Below the pieces are notes generated by a model. It had not been told where the DNA came from. It saw only the letters and a list, made by a program, of their open reading frames with translations, and ran no database searches. From Melioribacteraceae bacterium (GTDB lineage Bacteria > Bacteroidota > Ignavibacteria > Ignavibacteriales > Melioribacteraceae), in NCBI GenBank assembly GCA_015493615.1, contig WGCV01000003.1, positions 1-41,508 on the forward strand: DNA of 41,508 nt. The letters run 5' to 3'. The position numbers and the translations under genes are program-made. Positions 1-13,968 of the stretch are shown here, one piece after another. Position 1 is the first letter of the stretch. Every line of letters begins with the position of its first letter.

Positions 1-125
1 GCTACGTGCATTATTCTTTTGCCGGATGCAAGTCTTAATTGGGATTTGGTGGTTTGTGCATTTACTTTAGCTAACTCGTAGTAAGCCTTCAATGCGCTGA
101 TGTTTGTGTTGACTTTAAAAGCCAT
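1..125 (-). CDS. fliC: Flagellin, N-terminal fragment cut by the window edge
   Basis: The minus strand from the ATG at 123-125 encodes 41 residues beginning MAFKVNTNISALKAYYELAK, followed by a stretch containing LRLASGKRIMHVA. This is the D0/D1 N-terminal helix of flagellin, and it closely matches the flagellin at 3546-4418 (MGFRINTNIDALRAYYQLAR). The rest of the gene lies outside the window. A GGAGGT ribosome-binding site lies just upstream of the ATG, and a near-consensus sigma-28 promoter lies at 203-229. It is therefore a second flagellin paralog with its own late-class promoter, exported through the flagellar type III apparatus to build the filament. Confidence 0.93.
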   Translation of the reverse strand, partial: MAFKVNTNISALKAYYELAKVNAQTTKSQLRLASGKRIMHV

Positions 126-538: not shown

Positions 539-865
539 CTATTTATAGTTTATTAATTTCTTTTTATTGTTAATTAAAAATAACTCTTTTTTTAAAGATA
601 TACTTTTTTCACTTTTTTCTGCAATAATATTATCGAACTTTTCTTTTATTACTTTAGCTTTATCGGTTAAAAATTTATTATATTTTTTCAGTTCTTCAAC
701 CCCGAAATTTGATTTCAAAATCTCTCTCTGCTTTGATATATCTTCATAAAGAAAATTTATCCTGCTGATTTTCCCGTTAAAATTTTCATCGTCAATATTA
801 TCAAGAAGAAATAATACTTCCGAAAAATTTTTCTCAATCCTTTTAACTCCTTGTACCGCTTCCAT
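539..865 (-). CDS. Small FliT/FlgN-like putative flagellar chaperone
   Basis: This 108-residue, highly charged, almost wholly helical protein has no membrane segment. Its ATG overlaps the fliD stop (TAATG), and an AGGAGG-like site lies in the last codons of fliD, so translation is coupled. In many bacteria the small gene after fliD and fliS is fliT, the export chaperone of the filament cap, and the size and helical character fit. Sequence similarity to FliT cannot be shown by eye, so the assignment rests on position, length and composition. It could also be a FlgN-type chaperone. Confidence 0.55.
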   Translation of the reverse strand: MEAVQGVKRIEKNFSEVLFLLDNIDDENFNGKISRINFLYEDISKQREILKSNFGVEELKKYNKFLTDKAKVIKEKFDNIIAEKSEKSISLKKELFLINNKKKLINYK

Positions 866-2637
866 TAAAAGAATCCTCCTCCGAATTGCGAATACATTTG
901 CTGGCTCATTAATAACTGCGCTAATTGCTGCTGCAGGGATTCATATTGTTTCCTAAGATTTTCAGCCTGTTTATCAATGCTTGATTGTATTGAATCAACT
1001 CTGTCATTTAAATAGCTTACGTTGTTGTCCAAAGAATTTATTACATCCGCTATCGAGCCGTCGGCGCCTACGTAGGAATCAAGCGAATCGTACAACGAAG
1101 TCGCAACACCGTTTGTGGAATTAAACAAATCCGCAACTTGGTCCGGATGATTCTGCAAAGCAGTTTCAAAAGCGCTCGAATCCGACATTGACAGCCCTGT
1201 GCTCGGGTCGAATGTAATTCCGATTTCCGAAAGGTAGGCATAATTGCCTGAAGTTAAACCGTCAACTTTTCCGATTGCAATATCCTGCAGCTTTTTCATT
1301 AAAGAATAGGCGGTCGAATCGCCCGCAAAAATTCCTCTGCCCGAATCTCCGGAGTAGTAACGATTTTTTATATAGAGATACGAATCATTGAATTTCGAGA
1401 TAAAATCATTTACTTTTGATTTTATCTCGTCAACGTCCTTTCCAACCGTAGCGGTTACGGTAGTGTCCGTACTCTCCATCTTTGCTTTCAGATTAATCGT
1501 CAAATCCGAAACCAAATCCGTGATTGTGTTGGAATCCCGCTGGACTTGAATACCGTTAAATTCCAACACCGAGTTTAAATCGTTGCTTGTCGAACTCGTT
1601 GCGTCGTAGATAAATCCGGCGTCTGTATCAGTGCTTGTAACTGTATGATTACTTAAAATAGTTGATGTAAGACCTACAAAATCAAGAGCGCTTCCCGAAG
1701 CATCGGACATAATTAATCTGTTGTCGTATCCGGAATTTTTAGCCGTAATGGACAACTTGGAATTTCCGGTTGTCGGAGCAAACACGGACGCTGAGGCGAG
1801 CGCATTTGCGGATTTTTCTTTGGTAACATCGATATTCAAATTTGACGAATCAAGCAAAGTTCCGGTATCGTCGGCGGCAGCCATTGTAATATATTGGCTT
1901 TTATCGTTGACCGTAATTTTTAAGCTTACATCCGTGCCGTCGGTAACTTTCTCCGCAGTAACGCCGTCAACATTTGATGAAATTTTACTCACTAAATCCG
2001 AGACCACATCGTCCCACGTATAACCGGTGGAATAATCGTAATCAATGGAAGTCTCTGTTCCGTCTATGTTAATCTTGAAAGTCCCCGAACCGGTATAAGT
2101 ATCGGTAGCGACATGAGCCGTCGATTGGACAACTGCAAAATCGTTATTGATCGCGTCGCTTATCGCATCCATAATGCTGTCGTTTGTCTCGGAGGAAGTA
2201 AGCGTAACGTCAACATTGCTTGTGTAATCGCCGCTTTTAATCTGAATTTTATGCGTTCCTGCCATCGTAGTAACTGCGGTGTCCGAAGCCATGGTATTTG
2301 AAACGGCAATATCGCTTTTGGCAAGCTGATTAACTCTTATCGCGTATGAAGCGGGAGTTGCATTGCTCGAAGCCGTTACCGAGAAAAAGGAATCATCGGA
2401 GAGTTTTGCTGAACTGGTATTAAAAACCGAACTGTCTCCGCTGTATTTCAGCGTATAAGCAATATCTTTCAAACTTGAGAGGGATGTGCTTAAAGAACTC
2501 CACGTTGAAGATAAATTGGAGTATGTATTTATTTTATTTTTCAACGGATAAATCTGGCGCTGCTCCTGCACCGTCTTAAACGACGATACCATTTGATTTA
2601 TTCCGCTTGTTGTCAATATTGAACTTGAGCTAGCCAT
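865..2637 (-). CDS. fliD: FliD, flagellar filament cap protein
   Basis: This 590-residue protein starts MASSSSILTTSGINQMVSSF, a FliD/HAP2 N-terminus (SGID.  ..V). It contains a long Ser/Thr/Asp-rich variable middle and ends with a helical C-terminus with DDRVDSIQSSIDK-like and QLAQLLMSQQMYSQF segments, typical of the C-terminal D0 region. The cap sits at the filament tip and guides flagellin insertion. The start is an ATG with AAAGG about 8 nt upstream. It lies between fliS and a FliT-like gene in one sigma-28 unit. The length is within the usual range for FliD (about 450-650). The middle domain has no cysteines and is beta-rich in appearance, as expected for surface-exposed D2/D3. Confidence 0.92.
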   Translation of the reverse strand: MASSSSILTTSGINQMVSSFKTVQEQRQIYPLKNKINTYSNLSSTWSSLSTSLSSLKDIAYTLKYSGDSSVFNTSSAKLSDDSFFSVTASSNATPASYAIRVNQLAKSDIAVSNTMASDTAVTTMAGTHKIQIKSGDYTSNVDVTLTSSETNDSIMDAISDAINNDFAVVQSTAHVATDTYTGSGTFKINIDGTETSIDYDYSTGYTWDDVVSDLVSKISSNVDGVTAEKVTDGTDVSLKITVNDKSQYITMAAADDTGTLLDSSNLNIDVTKEKSANALASASVFAPTTGNSKLSITAKNSGYDNRLIMSDASGSALDFVGLTSTILSNHTVTSTDTDAGFIYDATSSTSNDLNSVLEFNGIQVQRDSNTITDLVSDLTINLKAKMESTDTTVTATVGKDVDEIKSKVNDFISKFNDSYLYIKNRYYSGDSGRGIFAGDSTAYSLMKKLQDIAIGKVDGLTSGNYAYLSEIGITFDPSTGLSMSDSSAFETALQNHPDQVADLFNSTNGVATSLYDSLDSYVGADGSIADVINSLDNNVSYLNDRVDSIQSSIDKQAENLRKQYESLQQQLAQLLMSQQMYSQFGGGFF

Positions 2638-2647
2638 TGTTAAACCT

Positions 2648-3007
2648 TTAGACCGCTATTGCTTCTTTATTAAATGCCGTAACCCAACTTTCCTTTAAAT
2701 TGGAAAGTATTACATAAACTATTTCGGTATTTCCCTTTATCATCTCGTCCTTGCAGAACATATAAAGGCTGTATAACTCCCGGGCAACTTCAAACTGCAA
2801 ATCCAATCCGCCAAGCAAAACGTCTATCGCTCTATTTGTTTTATTGACATCTCCCTTTTTACAATGCAACAGCGCATAATCATAAGTTTTTAGAAGAAGC
2901 TTTTCCTGCGGAGCTTCCATGATTTCTTTAGTTAAATATGGATTTCCCGCTCGTACGGTAGCGCGACCGCTTTTTCTTTGATATGCATTAGTTTCCGCTG
3001 AATTCAT
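2648..3007 (-). CDS. fliS: FliS, flagellin export chaperone
   Basis: This is a 119-residue helical protein with the FliS pattern: NAYQRKS near the N-terminus, a PQEKLLLKTYDYALLHCK helix, KTNRAIDVLLGGL, and a final helix with two Trp-containing or hydrophobic faces. FliS binds the flagellin C-terminus in the cytoplasm and keeps it unpolymerised until export. It is the first gene after the sigma-28 promoter at 3076-3102 and is followed after 10 nt by fliD, the classical fliS-fliD pairing in reversed order. A paralog at 3159-3527 shares the same helix pattern, so this organism has two FliS-type chaperones in adjacent transcription units. Confidence 0.85.
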   Translation of the reverse strand: MNSAETNAYQRKSGRATVRAGNPYLTKEIMEAPQEKLLLKTYDYALLHCKKGDVNKTNRAIDVLLGGLDLQFEVARELYSLYMFCKDEMIKGNTEIVYVILSNLKESWVTAFNKEAIAV

Positions 3008-3158: not shown

Positions 3159-3527
3159 CTAATTGGCTTTTGCCGCAGGCAAAGAATTAAATAGCGTATC
3201 AAATAATTCCTGCCATGTATCTCTAAGTCCGGTAAGAATTTTCATCGCCATATCGAAGTTACCGCGCCGGACTTGCTCCTGGGCGAATTGGTACAGCTGC
3301 AACAATGACGTGGAAAGCTCGCGAGTTTGTGTATCATCAAAGTTAAGAGCGTTTATCAGCTCGGAAATAGCGCGATTTGTTTTCTCCACATCATGTCTTT
3401 GGCAGTGAGTTATAGCAAAGTCATATACTCTAAACAATAACTCATGAGGAAGCGCGTCCATTATTTCTTTTACGAAATAAGCGTTCGCCTTTTCCTTATT
3501 TCCTTTTGCTAAATTTGTAGCATTCAT
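3159..3527 (-). CDS. Second FliS-type flagellin chaperone
   Basis: This 122-residue protein is paralogous to the FliS at 2648-3007. It shares the blocks NAYFVKEIMDALPHELLFRV, DFAITHCQRHDVEKTNRAI and a C-terminal DTWQELF helix. I place the start at the ATG ending at 3527 because AGGAG lies 7 nt before it; the ATG at 3542 would put that site inside the gene. It follows the main flagellin by fewer than 20 nt and is closed by the terminator at 3117-3143. It probably serves the flagellin encoded just upstream, while the other FliS may serve a different flagellin; that division of labour is inference. Confidence 0.8.
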   Translation of the reverse strand: MNATNLAKGNKEKANAYFVKEIMDALPHELLFRVYDFAITHCQRHDVEKTNRAISELINALNFDDTQTRELSTSLLQLYQFAQEQVRRGNFDMAMKILTGLRDTWQELFDTLFNSLPAAKAN

Positions 3528-3545
3528 TTCGGTTCTCCTCATCTA

Positions 3546-4418
3546 TTATTTAAATAATTGTAAGACCTGTTGTGGAGACATATTCAATTGCGCCAGCATT
3601 GCCGTTGCGGCTTGTCCTAAAATACTGCCTCTTGTAGCTTTCAACTGCTCCATAGCCATATCGGCGTCGAACAATCTGCTTACACTTGCTTCGGCGTTTG
3701 TAATTGCAACGTTCAATGTTTCTTCTTTAATATCCAATCTTTGCGTAAAGTTACCAATACTGCCGAGCGCGTTTGTAACCGCAGCTTTCAAACTTGTTAA
3801 AGCTGTCTGCAATGCAGCGACAGAGCTTGAGCCGGAAGTACACATCAAGGTTGAAGCGGAAACATTTGCAAAACTTCCAAGCGATGCGGAAATCCCGGAG
3901 CCGTAACCGCCGGTTGTACTTCCGGTGCTTGCCAACGAAGAAGCAAAGTTCAGATTAAGAGTATCCGAAGATTCTCCGACCTGAAAAATAAATCCTGACC
4001 CGGCTGTAGAATACAATAATGATGTATTGTTGAACTTGGCGTTTCTAATTGTTTTATCAATTTCTTTACCCAGCGCCTGAATATCGCTTGCAAGCGAAGT
4101 TCTGTCGGCCGTCGGGTTTGTCGAATCGGAAAGCTTTCCGTCAATTTTAACGAGTAAGTCGTTTACCGCGAGCAAAGCTCCTTCGGCTGTTGCCATCATA
4201 TCCTTTGCGGCGCTTACGTTGCCTTTTGCCGCTTTCATTACGGATATTTTTCCTTTCAGCGATGTTCCAACGTTAAATCCGGACGTGTCATCGGCTACAT
4301 GCATGATTTTTTTGCCAGAGGCAAGTCTCAATTGCGCTTGAGTAGTATCTTGATTTACTCTTGCCAATTGGTAGTAGGCTCTTAAAGCATCGATATTTGT
4401 GTTAATACGAAAGCCCAT
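3546..4418 (-). CDS. fliC: Flagellin, short form
   Basis: This is a 290-residue flagellin with intact N-terminal (MGFRINTNIDALRAYYQLAR) and C-terminal (ending ATAMLAQLNMSPQQVLQLF) D0/D1 helices. The central domain is short and Ser/Gly/Thr-rich, from about residue 140 to 190 (runs such as STGSTTGGYGSG), so the D2/D3 domains are largely absent. Such Ser/Thr-rich exposed loops are typical O-glycosylation sites. AAAGGAG lies about 6 nt before the ATG. The gene starts 4 nt behind the triple TPR-glycosyltransferase gene and is followed by a FliS paralog, so modification, filament subunit and chaperone appear to be one unit. Confidence 0.95.
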   Translation of the reverse strand: MGFRINTNIDALRAYYQLARVNQDTTQAQLRLASGKKIMHVADDTSGFNVGTSLKGKISVMKAAKGNVSAAKDMMATAEGALLAVNDLLVKIDGKLSDSTNPTADRTSLASDIQALGKEIDKTIRNAKFNNTSLLYSTAGSGFIFQVGESSDTLNLNFASSLASTGSTTGGYGSGISASLGSFANVSASTLMCTSGSSSVAALQTALTSLKAAVTNALGSIGNFTQRLDIKEETLNVAITNAEASVSRLFDADMAMEQLKATRGSILGQAATAMLAQLNMSPQQVLQLFK

Positions 4419-4421
4419 TTT

Positions 4422-7400
4422 TTAACTCCTTTTTTTGTTATTGGTTATTGTTTGAACTCCATTTCTTGGATTCATTTCTTCTAAAACTTTGTTTATTGCT
4501 CCTTCCCATTCTCCGAAACGGGACTGTCTGAAAATTTTTATCGCAGGGTACCAGATTGTTCTTTCACCGCGTCCCCAACGCCAGTCCGCTTTTTCCGATA
4601 AAAGCAAAAATGTTTTTACATTTAACGCTCCGGCAAGATGAGCTACTGCGGTATCGATGGAGATGAGAAAATCGAGATTTTTCAATATCGCGGCTGTATC
4701 TGAAAAATCTTTTATTGCGGAAGATAAATCAGTAATTCCCATTTCATTCATTTTTGCCGAATCTCTTTCCGCCACTTCTCCGACTTGAAGCGAATAAAAC
4801 TCATATCCGCTTAATCCTACGATTGAGGAGAAATCGCTTAACTCTGCCGAACGGTGAGCGTTGAACAAGGGCGTTTTTCCTTCCCAAACCAACCCGACTT
4901 TTATTTTATCAGTCGAAAAATAATCTTCTCTAAAGGACTTAACTTTGCCGGATTCGACACTTAAGTATGGTTTCTCCATCCGGCAATCGTCAAAATCCGA
5001 CTCCAAATATCGGGGCAAAGATAAAAGCGGCAGATGAAAATCATACTCAATACCGTTATCGTCGAGCGAGGTTCTCGGGACTGACTTTGAAACGCCTTCA
5101 CAGTTCTGCATTAAAGCGGAAAGACTTCCGTGCGTTTGCAAAATCACTTCCGCTCCGGTGTCGGATAGTTTTTTCGCAAATCGCGAAAACTGAATTGTAT
5201 CGCCGTATCCCTGCTCATCGTAAATGAGAATCTTCTTTCCTTCAAGCGGCACGCCGTTAAGTTCAGGCTTTGAAAAATAACGCTTAAGATAATCAGGCAA
5301 TTTTCTCCGCCATTCGTAAAACTTAAATCCATCCTTGTAATTCCCCGAAGCAAAAAGGATCAGACTTTTATTAAAGTTTGCGCGTACGTTTTCCGGCTCC
5401 CTTTTAAGCAATTTATCAATTACTTCAAGAGCTTCCTTATCTTTACCAAGCGTGGAAAGAGTATTGGCAAGATTAATTTCCGCATCCGAGTATTCCGGCT
5501 TTATCGATAATGCGCGCTTAAACAAATCTGCCGCTTCTGTAAACCTTCCCGTCGCATCTACAATAATTCCGAGATTATTATATGCGTTGAAATTTTCAGG
5601 CGAAGCTTCCACCGAAATCCTCAGCAATTTTTCAGCCTCTTTGTACTTGCCTAAATCTTTTAAGGCAACGGCGGCGTTATTAATTGCATTCAGATTTGCC
5701 GGATTGCTCCGTAAAACTTTTCCGTAATATCCGAGAGCTTCCTCGTTTTTCTCGAGATTTTGTTTAACAAAACCTGCTTTAAAATTAAACTCTTCTTCGT
5801 TTTCGTACTCTTCGGAGTATCTGTCCAATAATTTTTCAGCTTCCTTGTATTTTCCCGTAACGAGCAAATCTTCGGCGCTTTGCAGCAGTTTAGTCACTGG
5901 AATAACATCCGCCTCTTTAGTCTTCAATAAATTCTCCAGTTCCGAAGAAACTCTGTCGATTAAATTATCCCAATCTCCTTCTTCAATCTGACGGAATAAC
6001 TTCACGCTCGGATACCAATATGAGTTTTCACCTTCAAACGTCCAACGCCAATCGCAGTACTTGGGAAGCAGAACCCAAACGGGAATTTTCTGCGAAGCCG
6101 CTATGTGAAGAATTGAAGAATCAATCGAAATAACAAGATCCATCGCTTTAACTATCGAGGCAATATTCCATAGAGATTCATTAATGATTTTTACATTCTC
6201 AAAATTTTCATCAATTTTTTTTATTAATTTTTCATCCCGTCCCTTTTCAATGAGATAAAAATCAGCTTTTGTATTGGCAAACAATTTTTTCAGCGAATCA
6301 AAGTCAACCGAACGCTGTTTATTCGTCGGAGTTTTTGAATCGGTATGCCACATTATCGCAATATTTAATTTTTCCCGATCAAGTTTCTCCTTCCATTCTC
6401 TGACTATTTTTTCATCGGCGGCAAATAAATTCTGTGGCAATGCAAAATCTTCTTCTTTTTCAAGTCCGAGGATTTTCGGCAGTTTCATAATAGAGCAGGA
6501 AAAATCATAATTTTGTTCTTTCTCCAGGACGACCTTATCAACACAATTTAAGTTCTCAAAAAAGGGCACTAATCCGGGAGTTGTTCCAACCGTTATACTC
6601 AGTCCTTTCTCTTTTACTTTGGGCAAAAATCTCATAAACTGAATTGAATCCCCCAATCCCTGTTCGGTGTAAATTAATATCTTTTTGCCCGACGCTTCAG
6701 TTCCATCCCACTCACGAACCGGATTTTCCAAATCACTGACGCTTCTAATCGCCCAATCATATTCTCGGAAACCGTTCTTGAAATCTTTCCGCGCCAAATA
6801 TGCGAAACTTTTCCCCACATGCGCGGCAATCAGATTTTCCAACTCAATAGCTTTATCAAAATATTTTACAGCTTCGTCAAACCTTTTCAAAAAATAGAGC
6901 GTGTTAGCGTAATTGATATAATAGCCGGCGACAACTTCATACTTCAATAACTTTCTTAAGTACTTTTCCGATTCTTCATATTTGCCGAGACTTTGAAGCG
7001 AAAGAGCAAGTTTATTGAGTATTTCAGGAGTTTCTTTTATTTCCAGACTTACCTTGCAATATTCAATTGCTTTTCCGAAATCTTTTTTTGAAAAATATAT
7101 TTCGGAGAGCATTTCAATTGCGTCAAAACTTCCGGAATTAATTTGCAGCAGACTTTTCAAAAACTTCTCTGCGGAGTCAAACTGTTTCCGCTTGTATTCC
7201 AGGGTTCCCGCCATTAAAAGCGCCGCTTCGTCATTAGGAGATTTATCCAGATATCTTTCAAAATAAATTAACGCCTGGTCGAAATTTCCTTTTTCGTAAG
7301 CGTCAACACCGTAAAGTTTCAGCAAAACCAATTCCTGTTCCAATTCTCTTTGAGATTTCTCCGCCGTCTTACTCAACTTGTTGCTGATTCTCTCAAAAAC

Positions 7401-9170
7401 TCTGCTCCATTCTCCCTGTTCCCGCTGTCGGAACAACCTCATCGATTTATACCAAGCGGTTCTGTCCTCGCTTGTTCCCCAGCGCCAATCGGATACTTTT
7501 GAAATTAAATTCCAAACTTTTTTCCCCATCGCTCCGGCAAGATGCGCCACCGCCGAATCAACGGAAATAATGAGATCCAAATCATTAATAATTTGTGCGG
7601 TATCCAAAAAAGAATGTAACCCGGAAGATAAATCCGTTACGCCGCATTCGTCCAATATTTTCTTTTCATCTTCAGTCGGATCAATTTGAAGCGAAAAAAA
7701 CTCCGTATCCTTTACGACAAAAAGTTTTTTAAAATATTTCAAACTTACCGAGCGCTTAAAATCATACATGTGCTTGCTGTTTCCGCGCCAAGTAATTCCG
7801 ACTTTTATTTTATCCGAAGCCGTTTCACTTAATTTACTATTCTTCGATTTTATTTTAATGTACGGTTCTTCAACTTCGAGCGGAAATTTTCTTAACACGC
7901 TCGGAATACTCATCAAATAAATTTTATAATCTGCATGCAGGTTTTCATCAATTTCGGGCGTAATTTCATGGGCGATTCCGCTTATTTCAAAAAGTTCAAC
8001 GAGAGATTTTCTTGCTTGCAAAATCACATAAGCGCCTCGAGACTTCAGTTCCTTAATATACCGCACAAATTGAATCGCATCCCCCAAACCCTGCTCGGCT
8101 ATTACAAAAATTTTCTTTCCCGTAAGCTCTTCTCCATGCCAATCGGGAATCTCTTTTAACGCAGTTTCTTTTCCCCAAGTTTTAAGGCGCCATTCATATT
8201 CCGAAAGAGCTTTTTCATACTCCTCGATTGTGAAAAGAAGCAGAGAGTAATTAAAATGTGTAACAGCATCATCCGGTTCTTTGCTTAACACTTTTTCATA
8301 AAATTTCTTCGATTTTTCAAAATCACCCAGTTCGTAATAATTCGCCGCAAGATTAACCATCGCATCCAAGTTTTCAGGCTCAAGCTTAAGCACAGACTCA
8401 AGCAGTTCCTTCGATTCTTCAAACTTGCCGATATAATGATAAACTATTCCGAGGTTCGTCATCACTTTCGGCTGGTCCGGTTTTATCCGAAGAGAAGCTT
8501 TATAATATTCTTTGGCTCTTTCCCAATTTTTATCCTCCTTCAAAACATTCCCGTAAGCAAAATTTGCTTCGGGACTTACGGGATTCTCATGCACGCTCTT
8601 TTTATAATATTCCGCTACTTTTTCCGATTCTCCAATCTGCTGATAGCAAAATCCTAAATTATAAAGCGTAAGAAAATTATTGGGACTTACAAGTTCCGCT
8701 TTTTTCAAAAATTCAATAGCCCGCTTCCAGTTTCCATTATCGCGGTTAATTATTCCCAAATTGAAGTTCGCGCTAAAATTCATCGGACGAATTGCAAGCG
8801 CCTCGCCGTAGTAAAATTCGGCGGCTTCTCTTTTCCCCAATTTATAATACAGAGTCCCGAGTTCAACAAACAGCTCCGGATTTCTCGAATCAATATCAAT
8901 TCCCTTTTTAAAATACTCGGCGGCTTTTTCATAACTGTGTAAATCCTCATGCACTACTCCGAGCAGCAGATAAAGCTCGCCGGTTTTCCTAAACCGGGCG
9001 GCTTTTCTTAATGCTTCGGAAGCATGCGCCGAATCTTTTTTGCGAATAGACTCTTTCCCGAGTTCCAAATAATATTCGAAATTTTCTTCGGTTTTGAGTT
9101 TTTCCTTATTAACGATATGTTCTTGTTGTTCTACCAATTCTTGATATTTTTCCTTGCACACAATTTTCAA
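4422..9170 (-). CDS. Giant triple TPR-glycosyltransferase protein, putative flagellin glycosyltransferase
   Basis: This 1,582-residue protein is built of three similar units of about 480 residues. Each unit has a TPR array followed by a GT-B-type domain related to GT9/heptosyltransferase-like TPR proteins. The first motif of each domain is EQGLGDAIQF (near residue 360), EQGLGDSIQF (near 837) and EQGYGDTIQF (near 1322). The second is DSAVAHLAG (near 540), DSSILHIAA (near 1020) and DTAVAHLAG (near 1508). Each unit also has an R-S-[VA]-[DSE] segment and a DWRWG/DWRWT segment. Unit 2 has lost the AHLAG histidine context, so its activity may differ. No signal peptide is present, so it acts in the cytoplasm. 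The likely start is TTG (9168-9170), since a stop codon lies directly before it; no good ribosome-binding site is visible. The gene ends 3 nt before flagellin. O-glycosylation of flagellin is inferred from this linkage. Confidence 0.82.
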   Translation of the reverse strand: MKIVCKEKYQELVEQQEHIVNKEKLKTEENFEYYLELGKESIRKKDSAHASEALRKAARFRKTGELYLLLGVVHEDLHSYEKAAEYFKKGIDIDSRNPELFVELGTLYYKLGKREAAEFYYGEALAIRPMNFSANFNLGIINRDNGNWKRAIEFLKKAELVSPNNFLTLYNLGFCYQQIGESEKVAEYYKKSVHENPVSPEANFAYGNVLKEDKNWERAKEYYKASLRIKPDQPKVMTNLGIVYHYIGKFEESKELLESVLKLEPENLDAMVNLAANYYELGDFEKSKKFYEKVLSKEPDDAVTHFNYSLLLFTIEEYEKALSEYEWRLKTWGKETALKEIPDWHGEELTGKKIFVIAEQGLGDAIQFVRYIKELKSRGAYVILQARKSLVELFEISGIAHEITPEIDENLHADYKIYLMSIPSVLRKFPLEVEEPYIKIKSKNSKLSETASDKIKVGITWRGNSKHMYDFKRSVSLKYFKKLFVVKDTEFFSLQIDPTEDEKKILDECGVTDLSSGLHSFLDTAQIINDLDLIISVDSAVAHLAGAMGKKVWNLISKVSDWRWGTSEDRTAWYKSMRLFRQREQGEWSRVFERISNKLSKTAEKSQRELEQELVLLKLYGVDAYEKGNFDQALIYFERYLDKSPNDEAALLMAGTLEYKRKQFDSAEKFLKSLLQINSGSFDAIEMLSEIYFSKKDFGKAIEYCKVSLEIKETPEILNKLALSLQSLGKYEESEKYLRKLLKYEVVAGYYINYANTLYFLKRFDEAVKYFDKAIELENLIAAHVGKSFAYLARKDFKNGFREYDWAIRSVSDLENPVREWDGTEASGKKILIYTEQGLGDSIQFMRFLPKVKEKGLSITVGTTPGLVPFFENLNCVDKVVLEKEQNYDFSCSIMKLPKILGLEKEEDFALPQNLFAADEKIVREWKEKLDREKLNIAIMWHTDSKTPTNKQRSVDFDSLKKLFANTKADFYLIEKGRDEKLIKKIDENFENVKIINESLWNIASIVKAMDLVISIDSSILHIAASQKIPVWVLLPKYCDWRWTFEGENSYWYPSVKLFRQIEEGDWDNLIDRVSSELENLLKTKEADVIPVTKLLQSAEDLLVTGKYKEAEKLLDRYSEEYENEEEFNFKAGFVKQNLEKNEEALGYYGKVLRSNPANLNAINNAAVALKDLGKYKEAEKLLRISVEASPENFNAYNNLGIIVDATGRFTEAADLFKRALSIKPEYSDAEINLANTLSTLGKDKEALEVIDKLLKREPENVRANFNKSLILFASGNYKDGFKFYEWRRKLPDYLKRYFSKPELNGVPLEGKKILIYDEQGYGDTIQFSRFAKKLSDTGAEVILQTHGSLSALMQNCEGVSKSVPRTSLDDNGIEYDFHLPLLSLPRYLESDFDDCRMEKPYLSVESGKVKSFREDYFSTDKIKVGLVWEGKTPLFNAHRSAELSDFSSIVGLSGYEFYSLQVGEVAERDSAKMNEMGITDLSSAIKDFSDTAAILKNLDFLISIDTAVAHLAGALNVKTFLLLSEKADWRWGRGERTIWYPAIKIFRQSRFGEWEGAINKVLEEMNPRNGVQTITNNKKRS

Positions 9171-9208
9171 TTATCGGGCCAAAATATTTTCCTACTCCTT
9201 TTTGCTCA

Positions 9209-9257
9209 ATTTTCATCTGTTTCCACTATTTTTATCGAATTGAATTCAGATGAAAAT
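9209..9257. promoter_or_regulatory. 11-bp inverted repeat between divergent glycosyltransferase genes
   Basis: ATTTTCATCTG (9209-9219) and CAGATGAAAAT (9247-9257) are a perfect inverted pair with a 27-nt spacer. The spacer contains TTCGATAA on the minus strand, which resembles a sigma-28 -10 element but has no good -35. The position between two divergent genes suits an operator or a hairpin in the leader of the 4422-9170 gene. The function is not known. Confidence 0.5.
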
Positions 9258-9447: not shown

Positions 9448-11481
9448 ATGAAAAAGATCTGGCTTTACTATGTTTCATATCCCGCAACGACCGCAGTTTA
9501 TTTTGAAAAAGCTTTTAGGAAAAAATATGATGTTACTACAATCGGTCCTCAGTTGCCGCAGGAGTACATAACAAAGTGGAAACTTGAAAACTTAAAACAA
9601 CCGATTTTGCCTCAGAACATTCCGACCGATTTTGAACCGGACATACTTGAAATATATAATAACACGCCCGTCCACAAACAACCGGAGGTTTTTATCTGGA
9701 TTGAATCGGTGGGAAGACTTGTACCTCGAAATACCAAACAGCTTCCTGTTCCCACGGCATGTTATCTTATTGACAGCCACCTTCATTTAAGCGACCATGT
9801 TGAACTGGCGAAAAATTTTGACTTTGTTTTTATCGCCCAAAAAGAGTATTTAAATGATTTTATTAATGCAGGCAACAAAAAAGTTTTCTGGCTGCCTCTC
9901 GGCGCCGATCCGGAAATTCATGACAAATTTTCCGAAAACAGAATTCATGATGTTGGGTTTGTCGGTTCGCTTGTCGGCAATCAGCGGAGAGCTCAACTGT
10001 TAGAGTATTTAAAATCAAATTTTGATTTTTATTACGAGAGAGCTTTCCTGAAAGAAATGTCAAAAGTATTTTCTGAATCAAAAATCGTATTTAATAACGC
10101 TGTCCGGAATGATTTGAATATGCGTTTTTTCGAAGTAATGTCCACCGGCTCGCTTCTTCTTTCCGATATGACAACCAAGAGCGGACAGGACGAATTATTT
10201 GTTCCGAATGAAGATTACGCCCTTTACGACGAAGATGTAAATATAGGAAACGTAATTAATTTTTACCTTGAAAATGACGAATTGCGCGAGGCGATTGCCA
10301 AACGGGGAATGGAGCTGGTACGGAACGCACATAAATATTCCGACAGAGCCGAGGAAATGCTCGCCGTAATTTCGGGCGAGAAAAATTCGACATCAACAGC
10401 CGAAGAACTACGAAAAAAATCGGTTAAGTTTACATCCGTAAAAACGTCGCGGATAAATAAATTAAAACGAAGTTTTGTAATTCCCGTGATTGATTACGCC
10501 CCCGCAAGTCAGTACAATATAAAAACGCTGTTAGACGATTTGGAAAAAATCGAGGGAGAAGTAATTGTCGTCTTTAATTCCGAAGAAGTGGCAAATGAAA
10601 TAAAAGACGATCCGCGAATAGATTACTACGCCGTAATGAAAAAGAATGTAGGCGTTGCACGTGCGTGGAACATCGGCTTGAACATTGCTCGTACTCCGAT
10701 TGTTTTTATCGTTAACTCTGATGTCCATGTTGAAAAAAACGCTATTATAAATTTTGAGCAAGCCCTTATTTCACAACCCAAAGCCGCGATGGTAGGACCG
10801 CAAGGTTCTTTCTTCCATTTTGATAAACTTGCCGACCTTCATTATTTCGATAAGAATAAATTCGATAAAATTCAGGAAGTCGATGCCGTTTCAGGATTTC
10901 TTTTCGCGGTAAGGAAAAAATATTTCGATGAAAACAATCTTAAATTTGAGAACGCTTTTACTCCCTGTTACTTTGAAGAGTGGGATATCGGATTGCAGAT
11001 AAAAAGAGCCGGACTGGCAAGCTACATTGTTCCTTCATTTGATTACGACCACGAGTGGAGCGGGAGTATTCGCTCGATGAGAAAAATCAGCTATTACGAC
11101 AAGTCGGAAACCGCCGTGGAAATACACGCGAGAAATTCAGAGATACTTAAGAAAAAATGGGAAAAGATTGTTGAAAAAGATAACTCGTTAAAGCGCCTGC
11201 TTATCAGCGATTGGGTTAACTGGGCTTTATTTTTAAGCAAACAGGCAATTGAAATGCAAAACTTTGAACCGGCTGAAAAAATATTCAGGCAAATTATCGA
11301 ACTCTATCCCGAGCTGGAAGTGGGCTATAAAAACTTAGGTTTTCTCTATTTTATCGAGAAGAAGTTCGACATTGCCTTACCGCTCCTTAAAAAAGCGGGC
11401 GAATTAAATCCGGACGACGAAGCAGTGAAAACTTATCTCGAAAAGACAAAATCCGAGATAGAGAGCAGACTGAAAAATTAA
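9448..11481 (+). CDS. GT-B / GT-A / TPR fusion glycosyltransferase
   Basis: This 677-residue cytoplasmic protein has three parts. Residues 1 to about 310 resemble CgeB/DUF3880-type GT-B enzymes (WIESVGRLVPRN, then a WLPLGADPEIHD segment and RFFEVMSTGSLLLSD). Residues about 345-590 form a GT2 family GT-A domain (NVGVARAWNIGL, FIVNSDVHVE as the nucleotide-sugar/metal motif near residue 423, YFEEWDIGLQI near 509). The C-terminus has about two TPRs. GGAG lies 8 nt before the ATG. It is divergent from the triple TPR-glycosyltransferase and probably extends the same glycan on flagellin, or builds a surface glycan. The fusion of two unrelated catalytic folds suggests two successive sugar additions by one polypeptide. 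The acceptor is unknown. Confidence 0.8.
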   Translation: MKKIWLYYVSYPATTAVYFEKAFRKKYDVTTIGPQLPQEYITKWKLENLKQPILPQNIPTDFEPDILEIYNNTPVHKQPEVFIWIESVGRLVPRNTKQLPVPTACYLIDSHLHLSDHVELAKNFDFVFIAQKEYLNDFINAGNKKVFWLPLGADPEIHDKFSENRIHDVGFVGSLVGNQRRAQLLEYLKSNFDFYYERAFLKEMSKVFSESKIVFNNAVRNDLNMRFFEVMSTGSLLLSDMTTKSGQDELFVPNEDYALYDEDVNIGNVINFYLENDELREAIAKRGMELVRNAHKYSDRAEEMLAVISGEKNSTSTAEELRKKSVKFTSVKTSRINKLKRSFVIPVIDYAPASQYNIKTLLDDLEKIEGEVIVVFNSEEVANEIKDDPRIDYYAVMKKNVGVARAWNIGLNIARTPIVFIVNSDVHVEKNAIINFEQALISQPKAAMVGPQGSFFHFDKLADLHYFDKNKFDKIQEVDAVSGFLFAVRKKYFDENNLKFENAFTPCYFEEWDIGLQIKRAGLASYIVPSFDYDHEWSGSIRSMRKISYYDKSETAVEIHARNSEILKKKWEKIVEKDNSLKRLLISDWVNWALFLSKQAIEMQNFEPAEKIFRQIIELYPELEVGYKNLGFLYFIEKKFDIALPLLKKAGELNPDDEAVKTYLEKTKSEIESRLKN

Positions 11482-12142: not shown

Positions 12143-13207
12143 TTATGTTTTCAGTTCATAAATTTTATACCAATAGAAAAATGCTTCGGGATTCGATTTC
12201 TTTAATTTGTTAAGTTTGTTATTAATTGGCTTATCAAGTAGCCAATTTTTCATTTGTAGTGGTTTACTATATTTTTCAATTTTACCGGCATCGTGTTTAA
12301 TCAATGTTGCAAGATAAGCTGCTTTTGATGCTGCAATAATTGCTTTATCAATATTAAAACTCTCAGAAAAAATAAAAGATTTAATCCTTTGTATTCCTAA
12401 TTGTAGTTGTTCAAAGTCTCCCTTTCCGTCAATTCCTCTACTTGCAATTGTTAATGCTGTCTGGAAGATGTCTTCGGTTACATCTTCTACGCTAAGGTCA
12501 TTTTCACTTCTGTAATTCAATTCAGTTTTTGTAAAGAGTGAAAAAGTAGATTTAATAATTTTCAGATTTTCAACTTTATCGAATAAATTACCAATATCGT
12601 AAAGTTGTTTAATTATTTCCATACTCATACTATGTTCATTTCTGAAATATGGAATTCCGGTTGTGTTAGGTGCAAAAGCAGTGAGCTTGTCACCAAGCAT
12701 ATCTTCAAGCGATGGAACGTTTACCAGCAACGGTTCGTCTATTATTTGAACAAACTTTGAATCAATGGGGAGTTGAATAATATTTTGATAATTGGCTTCT
12801 TCAAATAAAATATCTAACAAAACGTAATCTTCTTCTTTATTGGTTTCGTAAGAGGGAGTATAAAAAAACTTGTAATGAGATTTGGTAATCTGAGTTGTGA
12901 AATATCTCTCTTGTAATTCTTTACGTGAAAACCCTTGTTCTCGAACAAGTTCTTCTAATAAAGCATCTAATTCTTTTGTTTCTTCAGGTAAAATTATATC
13001 AATATCAATTGAAAGTCTTTTAGTGGAATTAAAATGAAGCATCAATGCAGTACCGCCCTTAAATGTAAATTCAACCTTTTGTTTAACAAGTCCCTCAAGC
13101 AACAAAAGAGCACGAATAACTTTTTCAATCAGAATTTTATCAGCATTTTTGTTCTCTTTAGAAACCTTGCTAATCCACTCATTTGTTATTTCTTTTTGAT
13201 TTATCAT
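12143..13207 (-). CDS. AbiEii/AbiGii-type nucleotidyltransferase toxin
   Basis: This 354-residue protein carries the nucleotidyltransferase signature of AbiEii toxins. FTFKGGTALMLHF (near residues 47-59) is the GG-[ST]-A-L motif, and RLSIDIDIILP (near 64-75) gives the paired catalytic aspartates. LEDMLGDKLTAFAPNTTGIP near residue 170 is the conserved downstream block with the catalytic-site lysine. AbiEii toxins of type IV toxin-antitoxin systems transfer nucleotides to tRNA or related targets, slow growth and can abort phage infection. The cognate antitoxin gene lies 17 nt upstream on the same strand, and a broken third gene begins about 10 nt after the stop. All catalytic motifs look intact. 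Confidence 0.88.
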   Translation of the reverse strand: MINQKEITNEWISKVSKENKNADKILIEKVIRALLLLEGLVKQKVEFTFKGGTALMLHFNSTKRLSIDIDIILPEETKELDALLEELVREQGFSRKELQERYFTTQITKSHYKFFYTPSYETNKEEDYVLLDILFEEANYQNIIQLPIDSKFVQIIDEPLLVNVPSLEDMLGDKLTAFAPNTTGIPYFRNEHSMSMEIIKQLYDIGNLFDKVENLKIIKSTFSLFTKTELNYRSENDLSVEDVTEDIFQTALTIASRGIDGKGDFEQLQLGIQRIKSFIFSESFNIDKAIIAASKAAYLATLIKHDAGKIEKYSKPLQMKNWLLDKPINNKLNKLKKSNPEAFFYWYKIYELKT

Positions 13208-13224
13208 ATTCTATATTTCGGCAG

Positions 13225-13968
13225 TTAAGTTTCTTTGTTGCCGTTAATTAGTTTTAAATAATTTATAAGTTGGCTCTTTTTCCCCCGCCTATTAGCGTAT
13301 CTTAATAGTTTGTTTTCGTTAATAACATATTTGTTATAGGCATTGGAGAAAATTGTTTTCATTTCGTTTCCTTTATAGGCAGTAAAAATAATTTCATCAC
13401 AGAAAATATCAACCAACATTTTTTCTAATGTAACAGTATTGAGGTTTTTAATTGTTTGTACGGGAGCTTCTGATATTAATGGTTTAACAATAAAAAAATT
13501 GTTTTCACTTAATGCATAATTTTCAAAAACTTCTTGTGTAGGATTAATAAAAACCGAATAATTTCTATCTTTCAAAAAATGGAAAATAGATTCTACAGAA
13601 TCCTTCTCTGCTTCAATTAGGAAAAATGTTTTGTTAGTCTGATGAATTGTAAATTCGTTTAGAAGAGAGGAACTCCACAAACAAAATGTGGAAAACGGAA
13701 AATTCTTTTTTAGCTTAGAATTGATATTTTTTAATTTTTGAGAAATATCAGGTAGATAATTGGGTCTGACTTTTAATGTGTATTTACCTCTTCCGATTCT
13801 ATGAATAATTCCATTTTGAATTAATGAATAGATTCTCCAATGAATAGTAGTTTTTTTAATATCAGGCTCAAAAATCTTATAAAACCGAATAATATCTTTT
13901 GTATTAAAACTACCTTTGTTTTCGAAGCGAGATTTTATTTTTTCAATATGTAATTTGCCACTTGCGAT
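13225..13968 (-). CDS. AbiEi-type antitoxin with N-terminal winged helix; start codon non-standard
   Basis: The frame is open from the stop at 13981-13983 down to 13225. Its N-terminal part reads KSRFENKGSFNTKDIIRFY, then TTIHWRIYSLIQNGIIHRIG and RGKYTLK, a winged helix-turn-helix as in AbiEi/DUF6577-type antitoxins that repress their own operon. The C-terminal half (from about residue 95) is the antitoxin domain seen beside AbiEii toxins. No ATG, GTG or TTG lies in frame before the winged helix. The candidates are ATC (13966-13968, behind GGTGG) or ATT (13945-13947); the first TTG (13678-13680) would delete the DNA-binding domain. Either a rare start is used or the start has been mutated. 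The longest coordinates are given. Confidence 0.75.
   Translation of the reverse strand: MASGKLHIEKIKSRFENKGSFNTKDIIRFYKIFEPDIKKTTIHWRIYSLIQNGIIHRIGRGKYTLKVRPNYLPDISQKLKNINSKLKKNFPFSTFCLWSSSLLNEFTIHQTNKTFFLIEAEKDSVESIFHFLKDRNYSVFINPTQEVFENYALSENNFFIVKPLISEAPVQTIKNLNTVTLEKMLVDIFCDEIIFTAYKGNEMKTIFSNAYNKYVINENKLLRYANRRGKKSQLINYLKLINGNKET

Follow-up and report, generated by a model that had tools for sequence, protein, structure and literature searches.

A conserved three-unit tetratricopeptide repeat-glycosyltransferase encoded directly upstream of flagellin in the Melioribacteraceae, with a possible role in stepwise flagellin glycosylation

The 41,508-nucleotide stretch of DNA analysed here (the window; contig WGCV01000003.1, positions 1 to 41,508, assembly GCA_015493615.1) comes from a Melioribacteraceae bacterium and encodes, at 4422..9170 on the reverse strand, a 1582-aa protein in which three units, each composed of tetratricopeptide repeats (TPR) and a glycosyltransferase (GT) domain, are joined in one chain directly upstream of a flagellin gene. 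This array is a real and conserved variant of the FlmG kind of enzyme, with three probable catalytic units that probably act successively, and tandem TPR-GT units of this sort occur more widely. The favoured reading, with a probability of approximately 0.55, is that of a FlmG-like cytoplasmic flagellin glycosyltransferase with several active sites, the units of which differ in specificity and act one after the other.

The open reading frame (ORF) begins with a TTG codon and is free of internal stops. The three TPR-GT units that the original prediction placed in this frame are borne out by sequence motifs, by Pfam matches and by the same triple in 8 genomes. In each unit a TPR run leads into a GT domain that is about 270 residues long, and a Pfam search with the whole protein returned many TPR families (best 3.5e-72) together with Glyco_transf_9 (1.3e-15). 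Unit 1 (residues 1-606; 7353..9170, GT part 7353-8168) carries a long TPR array ahead of its GT9-like domain. Unit 2 (residues 607-1085; 5916..7352, GT part 5916-6737) has an altered W.GN loop, and unit 3 (residues 1086-1582; 4422..5915, GT part 4455-5285) is the best conserved of the three. The unit length of about 480 residues given originally is right for units 2 (479) and 3 (497) and too short for unit 1 (606), which is extended on its TPR side. An EQG[LY]GD motif begins at residues 359, 836 and 1319, reading EQGLGD in unit 1 (residues 359-364; 8079..8096) and unit 2 (residues 836-841; 6648..6665) and EQGYGD in unit 3 (residues 1319-1324; 5199..5216). A second motif, D-S/T-...-H, is found at residues 538 (DSAVAHLA; 7536..7559), 1017 (DSSILHIA; 6099..6122) and 1506 (DTAVAHLA; 4632..4655), and all of these features lie on the reverse strand.

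The GT domain of unit 3 exhibits 38% identity to that of unit 1 and 30% to that of unit 2, and the mean identity between units within one protein is 32-36% across eight genomes. An assembly or duplication artefact was rejected because the units are only about 30-38% identical and because the triple ORF, with three complete GT domains, is present in 8 genomes, the window genome included. The start codon of the array is uncertain. No Shine-Dalgarno sequence at the proper spacing was seen for the TTG at 9170, which is immediately preceded on its 5' side by CCCGATAA, as in genome G004, and an AAGGAG upstream of the array gene (window 9160-9220, -) matches no in-frame start; the true start may lie downstream of the TTG. 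A scan for sigma-28 -10 elements gave 62 sites with one mismatch, compared with an expectation of 40 from shuffled sequence, and no promoter was inferred from it.

The gene directly following the array encodes a flagellin of 290 aa (3546..4418, -), which is the probable acceptor, and the next encodes the first of two FliS-like flagellin chaperones (3159..3542, -). The array stop is separated from the flagellin start (4418) by 3 nt, just as had been noted at the outset, and the flagellin end from FliS by another 3 nt; an AAGGAG lies inside the last codons of the array gene ahead of the flagellin ATG. This arrangement was followed through 79 genomes of the family, with six candidate TPR-GT genes scored per genome. 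The triple is present as a single ORF of 1518-1720 aa with three complete GT domains in eight of them (the window genome G000, G001, G002, G039, G040, G041, G049 and G053). In a ninth, G004, it is divided over two contig ends, which is read as a broken assembly and not as two genes. Flagellin and then FliS directly follow the triple in all nine genomes. Between triple and flagellin the spacing varies from an overlap of 23 nt (mechanically assigned starts) to a gap of 29 nt, and in four genomes two flagellin-FliS pairs lie beside the triple. On the other side, a homolog of a 677-aa protein is encoded divergently from the triple in 9/9 genomes; in the window this protein (9448..11481, +) combines a Glyco_trans_1_2 glycosyltransferase domain with GT2-like and TPR regions. 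Flagellin_N was found in 62 of the 79 genomes, and none of the 17 without a Flagellin_N match carries the triple. G003, a member of the same genus listed as 100% complete, has no flagellin and no TPR-GT match at 1e-20, with all candidates scored.

Structure prediction, which had been suggested as a check, was applied to unit 3 with an alignment of 64 rows and to unit 2 with one of 58, and yielded models with a mean predicted local distance difference test score (pLDDT) of 95.0 and 94.2, respectively. Both models show a TPR superhelix N-terminal to a GT9-like GT-B domain. VIA-align identified GT9 enzymes as the best matches of the GT parts, namely 3tov, with Z 19.0 for unit 3 (249 residues, 2.9 A) and 18.2 for unit 2, WaaF (18.4 for unit 3 and 18.3 for unit 2), WaaC (18.0 and 17.9) and TibC (16.0 and 16.5). 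The alignments to 3tov, WaaF and WaaC span about 235-250 residues in either unit, and the GT domains of units 2 and 3 have the GT9 fold in these models.

Comparison of the eight single-ORF triples identified 25 GT positions that are kept in at least seven of the eight genomes in every unit, including EQGxGD, a loop Arg, the Asp and His of the D...H motif, and DWRW. The Asp of EQGLGD in unit 1 presumably corresponds to the catalytic Asp of WaaC, in which we take the Asp of the GD pair to be the catalytic base and the loop following the V.W strand to bind the nucleotide sugar. The D-T/S...H region was also aligned to WaaC by HMMER, in an alignment that is non-significant. Five GT columns are fixed differently between the units, two of them within the loop; these two are N and D in unit 1 (8/8), K/R and N in unit 3 (8/8) and mixed in unit 2. 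The loop reads W[RK]GN in unit 1 and W[ER]G[KR].P in unit 3, each in 8/8 genomes, and these are probably conserved donor loops of their own, judging from the sequences. The loop of unit 2 reads T.SK..T...R in G000, G001, G002 and G039 and retains W.GN in the other four. What is altered in unit 2 is the W.GN loop, in a manner common to four genomes; a catalytic crippling of this unit is not supported, as the core residues are kept.

The closest known enzyme is FlmG of Caulobacter crescentus, a likeness drawn from its published description (PMC7591256). There, the TPR domain of FlmG is reported to bind flagellin, and the protein, which carries a GT-B domain, to modify it; the flagellin FljK bears the glycan on four threonines. 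FlmG would share with each array unit an N-terminal TPR region and a C-terminal GT-B domain. It is a single unit of 596 aa that acts in the cytoplasm (PMC7591256), whereas the array strings three units together and is encoded immediately ahead of flagellin. Flagellin is likely to be the acceptor, as had been proposed, because its adjacency to the array is conserved and because FlmG provides a precedent (PMC7591256).

The best structural matches by VIA-align, the GT9 enzymes WaaC, WaaF and TibC, are single-domain proteins without a TPR superhelix and exhibit marginal sequence similarity to the GT domains of the array. TibC is a protein heptosyltransferase. OGT and SPINDLY (GT41) are protein-modifying enzymes in which a TPR superhelix feeds a GT-B domain, as in the array, but they contain a single catalytic unit, their TM-score is low (0.40 in the top row), and the GT domain of the array aligns better with GT9. 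The VIA-align rows for GT41 cover either TPR and GT together with a large root mean square deviation (rmsd) or the TPRs alone. The Maf flagellin glycosyltransferases have an architecture unlike that of TPR-GT proteins, and no Maf-type family appeared in a Pfam scan of ten window proteins (for the array, among the best 25 of 30 families). They are described as modifying flagellin in the cytoplasm independently of an oligosaccharyltransferase (PMC7591256).

Beyond the family, a scan of named contigs gave at least 592 candidate stretches, of which 490 were confirmed and the best 80 kept, corresponding to 78 loci; flagellin was sought in flanks of up to 10 kb per locus (shorter near contig ends) and was present in those of 17, four of which are from family genomes. 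ORFs with multiple GT domains were found in the Geobacterales, cyanobacteria, alphaproteobacteria, Verrucomicrobia and others, and the triple was accordingly rejected as a unique arrangement. Three Geomonas loci (L072, L073, L082) encode an ORF with three complete GT domains followed by one with two. Geobacter-type proteins of 2224-2273 aa (L075, L076, L078, L094) contain four complete GT domains and a fifth in two halves, of which the C-terminal half precedes the N-terminal half; L131 has three complete GT domains and the two reversed halves. These terminal halves (L075:10097-16810, L076, L078, L094, L131) represent a permuted fifth domain or two broken units. In the complete Geobacter-type units 1 to 4, the loops are position-specific and mostly conserved between genomes, although the unit-1 loop of L076 is unlike that of L075 and L078. 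Among 50 genomes sampled from the family of G081 (the Geobacter sp. of L075), with seven candidates scored in each, 47 have flagellin and 41 have a TPR-GT match at 1e-60. In 24 of the 50, fewer than 600 bp separate a TPR-GT gene from a flagellin gene downstream of it in the same orientation, and 14 of these 24 have a frame that reaches 1369 aa or more. Next to flagellin, the count of catalytic units varies from one to about five, depending on lineage.

Cyanobacterial arrays have two to six complete GT domains per ORF (six in L083), and the proteins of L081, L083, L085, L086, L095 and L111, which measure about 3150-3540 aa, each comprise five or six complete units of TPR and GT. To our knowledge, the cyanobacteria carrying these arrays lack flagella. 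Agrobacterium vitis encodes three complete GT domains in one ORF and one in the following ORF. In L101, a large ORF whose C-terminal domain is of the Peptidase_M10_C (serralysin) type directly precedes the array, and in L099 one small ORF stands between the two; these proteins are possibly the acceptors of their arrays. Large neighbours of the arrays in L105 and L142 gave no match in a Pfam search. Some relatives join the TPR-GT unit to other enzymes in a single ORF, namely to a group-1 GT domain in G059 and L125, and to a methyltransferase domain and a group-1 GT domain in G077, where the TPR-GT unit was recognised with our own profile.

For the origin of the units, 260 of 286 were kept after 26 were dropped for low GT coverage or short length, and a GT-domain tree was built from 122 of these, taken from 40 listed loci; loci L070, L071, L077 and L084 were left out as duplicates of others. 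In this quick, midpoint-rooted tree, in which support is given by the Shimodaira-Hasegawa-like approximate likelihood ratio test (SH-aLRT) only, all Ignavibacteriota units, joined by two of Neomarinimicrobiota, are separated from every other unit, including those of Geobacterales and cyanobacteria (SH-aLRT 94). This split suggests that tandem units expanded separately beside flagellin in two lineages. All eight unit-3 domains fall into one clade (99), six of the eight unit-2 domains group together (93) with those of G053 and G040 placed elsewhere, and the unit-1 domains form no clade. In L125, a locus of the Ignavibacteriaceae, the domain nearest to unit 3 (84) is encoded on its own by a 515-aa ORF.

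A second TPR-GT locus in the window genome, on contig C47, encodes a double (1089 aa) and a single (451 aa) TPR-GT protein. Ahead of them lie a GT2 protein with TPR, a TPR-rich protein and large multidomain glycosyltransferases (GT10, FkbM methyltransferase, GT2), and just before these GT genes are a GDP-mannose 4,6-dehydratase (562 bits, cut-off 415) and a GDP-L-fucose synthase homolog (476 bits, below the cut-off of 500). The contig also carries FliW and MotA, and this glycan island, at about 82900-102000 (L148, L009), lies approximately 34 kb past them. TPR-GT units arranged as 2+1, 2 or 1+1 were found in G001, G002, G040, G041, G049 and G053, and contig-end pieces in G004 and G039; within the family scan, at six candidates scored per genome, such second-locus genes were found in triple genomes only. 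The sugar genes at the second locus of G002 encode a UDP-N-acetylglucosamine 2-epimerase, RmlC- and RmlD-like proteins and a DegT aminotransferase, and because they differ from those of the window genome, the glycan probably differs between species.

FlmG is reported to require pseudaminic acid (PMC7591256), and four of the nine triple genomes yielded no convincing NeuB. NeuB (PF03102) matches below 1e-40 are present in five of the nine (G000 at 9.0e-75, G040, G041, G049 and G053). In G002, listed as 100% complete, the best match is 1.8e-6 and in G039 (93% complete) 1.4e-10; the PF03102 search gave no match in G001 and G004 (77% and 85% complete). All 13 named-locus genomes have PF03102 matches, those of G081, G082 and G091 reaching just 1e-13 to 1e-14 over about positions 52-238 and appearing to be of the 3-deoxy-D-arabino-heptulosonate 7-phosphate (DAHP) synthase type. 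Pseudaminic acid was set aside as the general donor of the triples, and is unlikely in that role because the complete genome G002 lacks a convincing NeuB, even though the window genome has a NeuB match; a nonulosonic acid is possible in the window genome.

In the proposed mechanism, the TPR superhelices would bind freshly synthesised flagellin, the product of the gene that follows in what is probably one operon. The three GT9-like GT-B domains would then transfer nucleotide-activated sugars onto surface Ser/Thr residues of flagellin through a presumed O-linkage, with units of different specificity acting in turn to build a short glycan core before FliS-assisted export. The divergent glycosyltransferase would probably lengthen this glycan, together with the products of the second TPR-GT locus, sugar-nucleotide genes included. 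Of the two options first put forward, three successive sugars or several modified sites, the former is the better one. Successive and different transfers are favoured over redundant copies because the loops are unit-specific and because relatives fuse the unit to unlike enzymes, namely to a group-1 GT and, in one case, also to a methyltransferase; the joining of unlike enzymes on one chain would be the expected outcome of successive glycan building. A stronger version, which can be put forward only tentatively, is that of an assembly line next to its acceptor, in which each tandem unit adds a different sugar in order and the number and identity of the units spell the glycan. It would span the Ignavibacteriota (three units beside flagellin and 2+1 elsewhere) and the Geobacterales (four and a split fifth, or 3+2), and under it the flagellin-free arrays of cyanobacteria and alphaproteobacteria would serve other exported proteins.

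It is rather unlikely that the three units are instead functionally interchangeable copies, all attaching one kind of sugar to multiple Ser/Thr sites of flagellin at once and so raising rate or processivity. The 25 conserved positions common to all units would suit such copies, as would an abundant flagellin that needs modification before export and the four glycosylated threonines of Caulobacter FljK (PMC7591256). Against this stand the loops of units 1 and 3, which are position-specific across genera and likewise in Geobacterales, the low mean identity between units of one protein, and the fusions to unlike enzymes. That unit 2 is mainly a binding or structural element with weak or no catalysis, leaving an effectively two-step enzyme, is improbable. 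It is the least conserved unit (32%), has lost W.GN in 4/8 genomes and reads DSSILHIAA in the window, but EQGxGD, the loop Arg and the His are present in all eight copies and the Asp of D...H in seven (Glu in G049), its GT fold is intact in the model, and its replacement loop motif is common to four genomes. A dead unit 2 is not supported, as the core residues are retained and the GT9-like domain is complete in the model.

Sub-threshold NCBIfam matches to lipopolysaccharide (LPS) heptosyltransferases, arrays without nearby flagellin in cyanobacteria and alphaproteobacteria, and the arrays of L101 and L099 that come after Peptidase_M10_C-type proteins could indicate that the array acts on LPS core, capsule or another glycoprotein, and that flagellin adjacency is a matter of operon history. 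This is very improbable given that flagellin adjoins the triple in every family genome that has it and a TPR-GT gene in 24/41 Geobacter-family genomes, that the flagellin-less G003 has no TPR-GT match, and that TPR superhelices generally suit proteins better than lipid A. It is hardly credible that the array instead regulates or chaperones flagellin synthesis, with its GT fold serving as a sensor. Listeria GmaR, an antirepressor with transferase activity, offers a precedent for a dual role, and the array is coupled to flagellin and FliS; however, the probable catalytic residues are conserved in all three units, and the second TPR-GT locus holds genes for GDP-fucose synthesis and more glycosyltransferases.

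Several results weigh against a multi-step flagellin glycosyltransferase. Between-genome mean GT identity is 41% for unit 1, 32% for unit 2 and 46% for unit 3, so that unit 2 is the fastest evolving, and its own loop motif is found in just 4/8 genomes. The loop signatures could stem from common ancestry at each position and not from donor choice. The top Foldseek rows are SPINDLY/OGT (GT41), with a TM-score of 0.40 and an rmsd above 12 A at the top, and no GT9 entry is among the best 50 rows; GT9 came first after realignment with VIA-align. Sequence support for GT9 is weak, with Glyco_transf_9 scores of 24.9 bits for unit 1, 23.7 for unit 2 and 18.5 for unit 3 (cut-off 22, the last being below it) and a best E of 0.12 in a GT-domain profile search of the PDB; a PDB search with the whole TPR-GT profile was dominated by TPR proteins. 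Arrays or single units without flagellin in the fetched flanks account for 61/78 loci, cyanobacteria included, and 17 of the 41 Geobacter-family genomes with TPR-GT have none directly upstream of flagellin. The Ser/Thr content of flagellin is also no higher beside the triple. Thirteen flagellins from the nine triple genomes and 20 hand-picked from genomes without the triple contain 19.8% and 19.9% Ser/Thr in total, and 30.2% and 29.0% in the central region. The Ser/Thr richness cited in the original prediction does not discriminate, because it is the same with and without the triple, and it was dropped as evidence.

No description of multi-unit TPR-GT arrays beside flagellin was found in titles and the openings of abstracts, a coverage that largely excludes subscription journals. 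The claim that the arrangement is undescribed stands to that extent, but tandem units are common in genomes, and in 24 of the 50 from the Geobacter family a TPR-GT lies directly upstream of flagellin. How flagellin glycosyltransferases select flagellin and how many sugars they add is poorly understood. With the enzyme, its probable acceptor and the chaperone in one cluster, and a unit count that ranges from one to about five, a direct test is possible, and the question is opened of whether unit count relates to glycan length or to the number of sites. If unit count does predict either of these, a single gene would reveal the structure of the glycan, and protein glycans could be designed by recombining units.

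The remainder of the flagellar cluster downstream of the array encodes a second FliS-like chaperone (2648..3007, -), the filament cap FliD (865..2637, -) and an FlgM-like protein with 24.1 bits, below the cut-off of 25. Past the FlgM-like gene, the start of a further flagellin gene (window 1-125, -) is interrupted by the contig end. An AbiEii nucleotidyltransferase and DUF6577 pair (window 12143-13680, -) resembles a toxin-antitoxin module.

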